From contig NZ_JARBWD010000001.1 of NCBI RefSeq assembly GCF_030140925.1, forward strand, positions 2,108,001 through 2,172,000: 64,000 bases of DNA. The letters run 5' to 3'. Of the stretch, positions 8,401 to 42,280 are shown piece after piece (within the stretch, counting starts at the first letter, position 1; each line of letters starts with the position of its first letter). The notes beneath the pieces were generated by a model that saw nothing but the letters and a program-made list of their open reading frames with translations, had not been told where the DNA came from and did no database searches. A program made the position numbers and the translations under genes. This stretch comes from Parerythrobacter aestuarii (GTDB taxonomy: Bacteria; Pseudomonadota; Alphaproteobacteria; Sphingomonadales; Sphingomonadaceae).

Positions 8401-8428
8401 TCTGACCCACTAACACCCATGCAAAGCC

Positions 8429-8510
8429 CGTTCGGGCTGAGCTTGTCGAAGCCCAGCCATTGCCATTGCGAACGGTGGTGCCTGCCCTTCGACAGGCTCA
8501 GGGCGAACGG
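8429..8510. repeat. paired-hairpin repeat, family B copy 1
   Basis: Two inverted half-elements, each built around TTCGACAGGCTC-like loops. Left half 8429-8455, right half about 8483-8510, joined by an unrelated spacer. The ends CCGTTCG and CGAACGG are complementary. Each half can fold by itself: stem GGGCT/AGCCC on the left, GCCCT/AGGGC on the right, so the stems differ but stay paired. The same family occurs inside trmD at 41965-42040. It lies between two genes running toward each other and may act as a bidirectional terminator or an mRNA-end stabiliser. Confidence 0.85.
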
Positions 8511-41072: not shown

Positions 41073-41447
41073 TTATTCGCCCTTGGCTGGGCGGGTGTCG
41101 CGACGTTCGGCGATACGCGCCGACTTACCGGTGCGGCCACGCAGGTAGTAGAGCTTGGCGCGACGCACGATACCGCGGCGTACCACGGTGATGCTGTCGA
41201 CGATCGGCGAGTAGAGCGGGAACACGCGTTCCACGCCTTCGCCGAAGCTCATCTTGCGGACGGTGAAGTTGGAGCCCATGCCACGGTTCGAACGGGCAAT
41301 GCACACGCCTTCGAACATCTGGATACGCTCGCGGCTGCCTTCGACAACCTTCACGCCGACGCGCACGGTGTCACCGGCGCGGAATTCGGGGATCTCTTTG
41401 CCAGCCTTGGTGATTTCCTCGGCTTCGATCTGCTGGATCAGGTTCAC
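41073..41447 (-). CDS. rplS: 50S ribosomal protein L19
   Basis: A 124-residue L19 ([55 protein letters not shown]). It lies at the interface with the small subunit. The start is GTG at 41447, overlapping the trmD stop (GTGA), so L19 translation depends on trmD being read through in frame. The length is normal. Last gene of the ffh-rpsP-rimM-trmD-rplS group. Confidence 0.97.
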
Positions 41448-42280
41448 TGGTCCATTTCCTTCTTCTTTCGCCGCGCGCCAGAGGCAGACTGGTCCCGAGC
41501 GTCACTATAACGCTCCCAAAGGTCCGGCCTGCGTAACCGTGTAATCTCTTCCGCCTGCGCCTTGCGCCAAGCGGCAATCTTCGCATGATCCCCCGATCGC
41601 AGCACTTCAGGGATCGTGCGCCCTTCCCATTCCTGAGGTCGGGTATAGTGCGGATATTCGAGCAATCCGTCTTCGAAGGATTCCTCATGCCCGCTTGAAG
41701 GCGCGCCCATTACCCCCGGAAGCAGGCGAATGCAAGCGTCGAGTATGGCTATGGCAGCGGTCTCACCGCCGGAGAGGACGATGTCGGCGAGCGACACCTC
41801 CTCGATCTCGGGCCGCGCGTCAAACAGCCGCTGGTCGAACCCCTCGAACCGCCCGCACAGCATGATGACGCCGGGGCCGGATGCAAGCTCGCGGATGCGG
41901 GCCTGGGTGATGGGTTTTCCGCGCGGGGTCATGGCAAGGATGGGCCTCGCGCCGACGCCCGTATCCGTTCGTGCTGAGCCTGTCGAAGTACGAATAGTCT
42001 GGCGCTCCGCCTGCCCTTCGACAGGCTCAGGGCGACCGGGATTGCCGTTTGTGACGTGGTCAAGCGCCCTCGCCATCACATCCGCCTTAAGCACCATCCC
42101 CGCCCCGCCTCCGGCCGGCGTATCATCGACCGTGCGGTGCCTGTCGGTGGCAAAGTCGCGCGGATTGACGGTCTCGCACGACCAGTCCCCCCGCTCGAGC
42201 GCCTTGCCCGCCAGCGACACGCCCAGCGGCCCGGGAAACATCTCCGGATAGAGAGTGAGGATGGTGGCGGCGAAGGTCAT
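41444..42280 (-). CDS. trmD: tRNA (guanine37-N1)-methyltransferase with in-frame repeat insertion
   Basis: A 278-residue TrmD, which methylates G37 next to the anticodon and prevents frameshifting. Core motifs are intact: [14 protein letters not shown] at the start, [24 protein letters not shown] and the SAM-knot [11 protein letters not shown]. Between the helix [13 protein letters not shown] and the strand [10 protein letters not shown] lie about 26 extra codons (residues about 81-106, PEPVEGQ to RTSTGSART) that are the translation of a family B repeat. The frame is kept, and the insertion falls in what is a surface loop in TrmD structures. The start overlaps the upstream gene (ATGA). Confidence 0.95.
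41965..42040. repeat. family B paired-hairpin repeat inside trmD
   Basis: Same half-elements as at 8429-8510: ends CCGTTCG and CGACCGG, with TGTCGAAG near 41981 facing CTTCGACAGGCTCAG at 42016-42030. About 76-78 bases, contributing a multiple of three. Right-hand stem GCCCT/AGGGC is intact; the left stem has one mismatch. It is fully inside the trmD reading frame on the minus strand. Confidence 0.88.

Follow-up and report, generated by a model that had tools for sequence, protein, structure and literature searches.

Palindromic repeats that are read in frame within protein-coding genes have been described in several bacteria. In Rickettsia, the RPEs are palindromic repeats inserted in frame in conserved genes, which they leave unbroken, at solvent-exposed sites. 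Different groups (RPE-4, RPE-6 and RPE-7) lie at or near one locus, for which hot spots have been weighed against divergence from a single insertion (PMC3767692). Similarly, intragenic REPs of the GTAG and CGTC families include REP dimers that encode 20-30 residues inside genes, tRNA synthetases and TruB of 'E. lithoralis' and S. alaskensis being among the genes listed, and different REPs stand at about one site of Xanthomonas recB (PMC3733652). The main text of that survey makes no mention of TrmD; its list of intragenic REPs (Additional file 3) may contain it. Nothing on a palindromic insertion in TrmD was found in the open-licence literature, judged mainly by titles and listings, and the literal arm sequences discussed below were absent from the open-licence literature searched, supplements being outside that scope.

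Here, we describe an element of this kind in trmD of Parerythrobacter aestuarii (genome G000). It lies in the window, that is, the whole stretch of 64,000 nt of DNA that was analysed (Table 1). The element is 75 nt long and is built of two inverted units of about 26 nt each. The preliminary description had taken some 26 codons of TrmD for the translation of a dispersed repeat, and this was confirmed: the arm CTGAGCYTGTCGAAG has 38 exact matches in the 3.02 Mb genome (reversed control, 0), and matches to the arm CTGAGCCTGTCGAAG number 4 in the window when up to two mismatches are allowed (shuffle mean 0.32, maximum 2). The length is indeed a multiple of three and the minus strand free of stops, the 278-codon trmD frame translating straight through the element. 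A normally intergenic repeat is thus read in frame in an essential gene, and most relatives carry no insert. The resulting loop has 48 residues versus 16 in the commonest short form (DSV-type); the repeat supplies about 25 of the 32 extra residues and short non-repeat flanks the remainder. Folded in the mRNA sense, the element reaches -41.6 kcal/mol (z -5.15 against shuffles).

Table 1. Features of the trmD region and of the family B repeat, in window coordinates.
Feature	Position	Strand	Basis or remark
trmD, tRNA (guanine-N1)-methyltransferase, 278 aa	41444-42280	minus	ORF, Pfam, PDB sequence and fold matches
presumed rplS (L19), whose start shares a 4-nt overlap with the trmD stop	41073-41447	minus	ORF; name from sequence and position
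Family B palindromic repeat, two inverted units	41965-42039	minus	read in frame as TrmD residues 81-106
Unit arm CTGAGCCTGTCGAAG	41974-41988	plus	arm match in window
Arm of inverted partner unit CTGAGCCTGTCGAAG	42016-42030	minus	arm match in window
Expanded loop after V76, residues 77-111: repeat and short non-repeat flanks	41948-42052	minus	alignment with short-loop relatives
Intergenic family B copy of 83 nt, with 75% identity to the one in trmD	8428-8510	plus	arm match and alignment

Copies of family B consist of two units in inverted orientation, CCGTTCG-NN-CTGAGCYTGTCGAAG-N'N', and the variable bases within each unit can pair. We inspected the loci of 30 of the 38 arm matches, corresponding to 20 sites; with many copies lying mostly outside genes, the family is a dispersed palindromic (REP-like) repeat. 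The intergenic copy in the window, which had been called the same element, belongs to the same family, but its identity to the trmD copy is modest (Table 1). Among the 13 other complete copies extracted from the genome, the closest to the trmD element is intergenic and 89.5% identical, with its arm at G000:C1:2176628, outside the window and about 26.6 kb away, while the trmD inserts of other species reach at most 78% identity. The length is divisible by three in 8 of the 14 complete copies, that of trmD included, and 9 of the 14 are open in four of six frames, so that such elements should be read through easily. Besides trmD, 9-10 further ORFs were tested in the genome and in none did a Pfam domain span a B copy (in an IspA/YciB ORF running through one, the domain starts after the copy), which leaves trmD as the sole inspected B site whose location inside a gene is well supported. 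The Y1_Tnp profile (PF01797) gave no match in G000, and a transposase of this type was dropped as the mobiliser of family B. At G000:C1:2376692-2376754, two B arms stand in the order minus then plus, opposite to the usual pairs.

Membership of the host protein in the TrmD family is clear from both profile and fold. Pfam tRNA_m1G_MT (PF01746) matches on both sides of the insert with 156.8 bits (cut-off 27.3), and VIA-align places the predicted model at Z 22.1 to the TrmD structures 4ig6 and 3ief. Among the PDB TrmD chains listed that align in split form, every one breaks at the insert. The TrmD motifs, stated earlier to survive the insertion, are intact by the Pfam match and by alignment with relatives. 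The AlphaFold model, made with 40 sequences, is a weak one (mean pLDDT 69.0). It predicts a helix at residues 66-77, a strand at 114-123 and, between them, a low-confidence coil (pLDDT <50 at 88-108), in agreement with the placement first proposed, between a helix and a strand at the edge of the knot. Given this weak model, the insert would suit a flexible loop next to the SAM-binding knot.

The next ORF, which we take to be rplS (L19) from its sequence and position, overlaps the trmD stop with its start, as had been described, and the overlap amounts to 4 nt. Translation of trmD is coupled to that of rplS in Caulobacter, where rplS translation is aided by a hairpin close to the trmD 3' end (PMC8144410); this coupling supports the earlier remark that the frame had to be kept for L19 as well.

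Relatives were drawn from two sources: 80 chosen by likeness to the window TrmD, and a family sample of 199 genomes, of which 196 had a match and 146 were fetched. The 227 parsed loci, less 8 duplicates and 6 missed by the search pattern, gave 213 unique TrmD sequences. (Of the 6 outside this set, two have a filled loop (L051 and L054), two a short one (L059 and L223), and two are cut by contig ends (L135 and L137).) Loop lengths fall into two classes, short (16-26 residues, 174 sequences) and long (46-66 residues, 39 sequences). The short-loop sequences keep both flanks, so relatives without the insert and with intact flanks, which the preliminary description had looked for, make up 174 of the 213. 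The opposite outcome, a loop of the same length and of unrelated sequence in all relatives, was not observed, but long loops holding unrelated repeats do occur in a minority. In the family-wide sample, 20 of the 144 loops judged were filled and 124 were short; the 22 of 77 filled among the likeness-chosen loci do not represent a frequency, since these were picked by likeness to an insert-bearing TrmD. The preliminary description, which dealt with a single case in one genome, was therefore too narrow: other repeat families fill the same loop in other species and the filling varies within genera.

Palindromes of four main kinds fill the 39 long loops (11 of B, 14 of C, 10 of D and 3 of E), together with one further kind, F, which is similar to C; the automatic run left 4 of the 39 inserts unlabelled and 9 mixed, and those were assigned by eye. 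Alignment scores between families are typically at the shuffled level for B-C, B-D, C-E and D-E. They are clearly above it for C-F and slightly above it for C-D and B-E, and C and F, as well as B and E, may thus be related. The families found in the loop are dispersed in the filled genomes (for example, D has 28 matches in G116 and C2 43 in G108). Arms of family B are present in 17 of 20 filled genomes versus 3 of 11 empty genomes picked as close relatives, and in 123 of the 199 genomes of the wider family. The idea that a repeat-rich genome always fills the loop is false across the wider family, as G066, G042 and G091 carry 154, 148 and 138 B arms, respectively, and have an empty loop; with many such B-rich genomes, the presence of repeats is not sufficient for filling. 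At the loci L033 and L129 the arms have decayed and the reading frame was kept, and the hairpin is hence unnecessary for retention, the peptide outliving it. The L044 locus, sister of L033, has a loop of 26 residues and a 3' flank like that of its filled sister, possibly a deletion scar.

Several length classes of family B were seen in G158, G000, G096 and G092, with a subtype of 91-94 nt and a long spacer especially common in G158. We had considered the trmD elements as plainly inherited copies, from the likeness of the spacers in L114, L120 and L034, and dropped this reading; the likeness proves nothing, because copies of the long-spacer subtype are scattered through G158 (many of them at 76-84%) as well as through G000, G096 and G092.

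The content of the loop changes at short evolutionary distances. In the family sample, every one of the 11 genera in which a filled loop could be compared with another evaluated member is mixed: 9 contain both filled and empty species, and 2 (g4 and g33) contain two different families. Among the five genomes of the window's genus, G000 has a B element, G158 a B element in the other orientation and G096 a C-type element, and G002 and G199 are empty. Three species of genus g23 carry B-, D- and C-type elements between similar flanks. L050 holds a C1 element, L125 a C2 element and L136 none, yet to either side of the loop the three share 93-97% identity. The Fitch count on the core tree is 33 multistate changes (27 binary) versus a minimum of 36 and a mean of 38.3 in 200 multistate label shuffles, so the state of the loop is only weakly tied to the tree; these counts are rough, the core tree having 337 columns and trmD itself recombining. 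The trmD of L034 is a mosaic, 94-99% like L045 between codon 20 and the last base of the insert and 92-100% like L076 after the loop. The junction lies at the loop, and inserts thus also travel between species by recombination.

Repeats are concentrated in the loop to the exclusion of the rest of the gene. Over the 213 loci, the 15.7 kb of loop sequence contain 53 signatures of B, C1, C2, D and E, the 145 kb of trmD outside the loop contain 0, and the 604 kb of flanks contain 12; one element can carry two signatures. The 12 flank signatures correspond to 7 elements; 5 lie outside any ORF of 130 codons that reaches 30 codons past both ends, and 2 of the 7 lie within such long predicted ORFs. 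Upstream of the gene, L037 and L039 have a B element about 100-40 nt before trmD, and L076 has one about 640-580 nt before it. In L037, the trmD start (ATGACCTTCGCCGC or similar) is repeated on the far side of this upstream element, an arrangement suggestive of a start region duplicated about the element.

The TrmD loop looks like a recurrent landing place for dissimilar repeats. The most probable explanation (about 80%, in our estimate) is a tolerant loop in which in-frame, stop-free palindromic elements persist and whose contents turn over by insertion, loss and recombination. A dispersed REP-like element with two short inverted units would land, or be copied, in the loop connecting a helix with the strand that runs into the SAM-binding knot, a place that may tolerate extra peptide. 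Elements that keep the frame and bring no stop would persist as an additional, probably disordered peptide, with purifying selection preserving the remaining enzyme and the trmD-rplS overlap. Across the Erythrobacter-like bacteria, the loop would have been filled repeatedly by different palindromic families and then emptied or exchanged, and recombination between trmD alleles also moves inserts from species to species. The data directly establish what the repeat is, its open frame, the empty sites, the use of one loop by several families, the turnover inside genera and one mosaic allele. We infer the surface exposure and disorder of the loop, the tolerance or near-neutrality of the inserts, and the way in which the elements move.

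A tolerant loop would not by itself account for the preference for this site: of the ten other ORFs tested at B copies of G000, none has a Pfam domain running across the element. The positions of the elements give some hints. Taking the 5' ends of the elements alone, the parsed 3' ends of L034, L045, L061 and L118 being wrong, the B elements of the window genome, L114, L034, L045 and L120 all begin 13 nt after loop codon 11, with those of the window genome and L120 in the orientation opposite to those of L114, L034 and L045 (reverse scores exceeding forward scores). In addition, a Thr codon directly after DSV, in a GTNAC-like context, is found in 13 of 20 filled non-D loops versus 1 of 38 empty DSV-type loops (p 3e-7, kinship ignored). 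Both observations resist simple tolerance and hint at shared ancestry or a target preference, either of which would imply fewer independent insertions. Shared ancestry would mean an old inherited insertion whose content was exchanged or inverted, either through gene conversion at the conserved arms or when trmD alleles recombined. We regard this as a serious possibility, if one at less than even odds: the common offset in both orientations, the Thr codon and the L034 mosaic, with its junction at the loop, all speak for it, but the C, D and E elements begin at other offsets (D at -3, 0 and +21; C at +3, +6 and +21; E at +22 to +24), have no arms homologous to those of B (median cross-family scores being near the shuffled level), and filled clades contain empty close relatives. 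A broader form of the same idea is put forward more tentatively still, namely that the loop serves as a dock where palindromic families replace one another in place, the insertion point being inherited or specifically targeted, which would give an essential enzyme a loop that is encoded by repeats and changes fast.

A true insertion hot spot beyond tolerance, where the mobilising enzyme favours the loop sequence or a lagging-strand structure, seems unlikely to us. It would account for the restriction of the signatures to the loop and for the GTNAC-like context that precedes many inserts, but the junctions within the loop differ by family, the loop is empty in many repeat-rich genomes, and G000 has no Y1_Tnp/RAYT relative by the PF01797 profile alone. 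It is quite improbable that the element is functional, its mRNA hairpin or peptide being kept by selection for tuning TrmD/L19 output or the activity of the enzyme. The strong fold of the window element and the Caulobacter coupling with its hairpin near the trmD 3' end would suit such a role. However, about 520 nt separate the insert from the rplS start downstream of it, which places it beyond the 100 bp probed in PMC8144410, the frame was kept in L033 and L129 after decay of the arms, and most relatives have no insert at all. The window species is represented by one strain, which could raise the suspicion of an assembly or sequencing artefact; this has a negligible probability, as the genome is 100% complete in 3 contigs and in-frame inserts at the same loop are found in independently sequenced genomes, including the single-contig G158 and G096.

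This loop is of interest as a dated and replicated natural experiment in which non-coding repeats become protein, with relatives of more than 93% identity that differ in whether the site is filled or empty. One loop accommodates several repeat families. The enzyme is essential, serves as an antibiotic target and is known from many solved structures, and whether such repeats are tolerated, targeted or used becomes testable. There is also a practical warning, since trmD, which has been used as a phylogenetic marker, for instance in PMC4289293, carries recombining inserts.

The element in trmD is, like the RPEs, a palindromic repeat in frame inside a conserved gene, a likeness in features. It differs from them in that the TrmD loop holds palindromic families dissimilar in sequence, with empty sites among such closely related bacteria. 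The likeness to intragenic REPs extends to dimers inside genes, to the reuse of one site and to the inclusion of Erythrobacter and Sphingopyxis genes, as reported in PMC3733652. Compared with the family descriptions of the GTAG and CGTC REPs, the units of family B begin with CCGTTCG and show no clear GTAG or CGTC end tag in G000. Two short units in inverted orientation, mostly intergenic, also recall REPINs; a REPIN system with its RAYT differs by the Y1-type tyrosine transposase, for which PF01797 has 0 matches in G000. In-frame palindromic repeats are thus already known from RPEs and REPs, and the present case adds TrmD to their hosts together with a far denser record of one loop.
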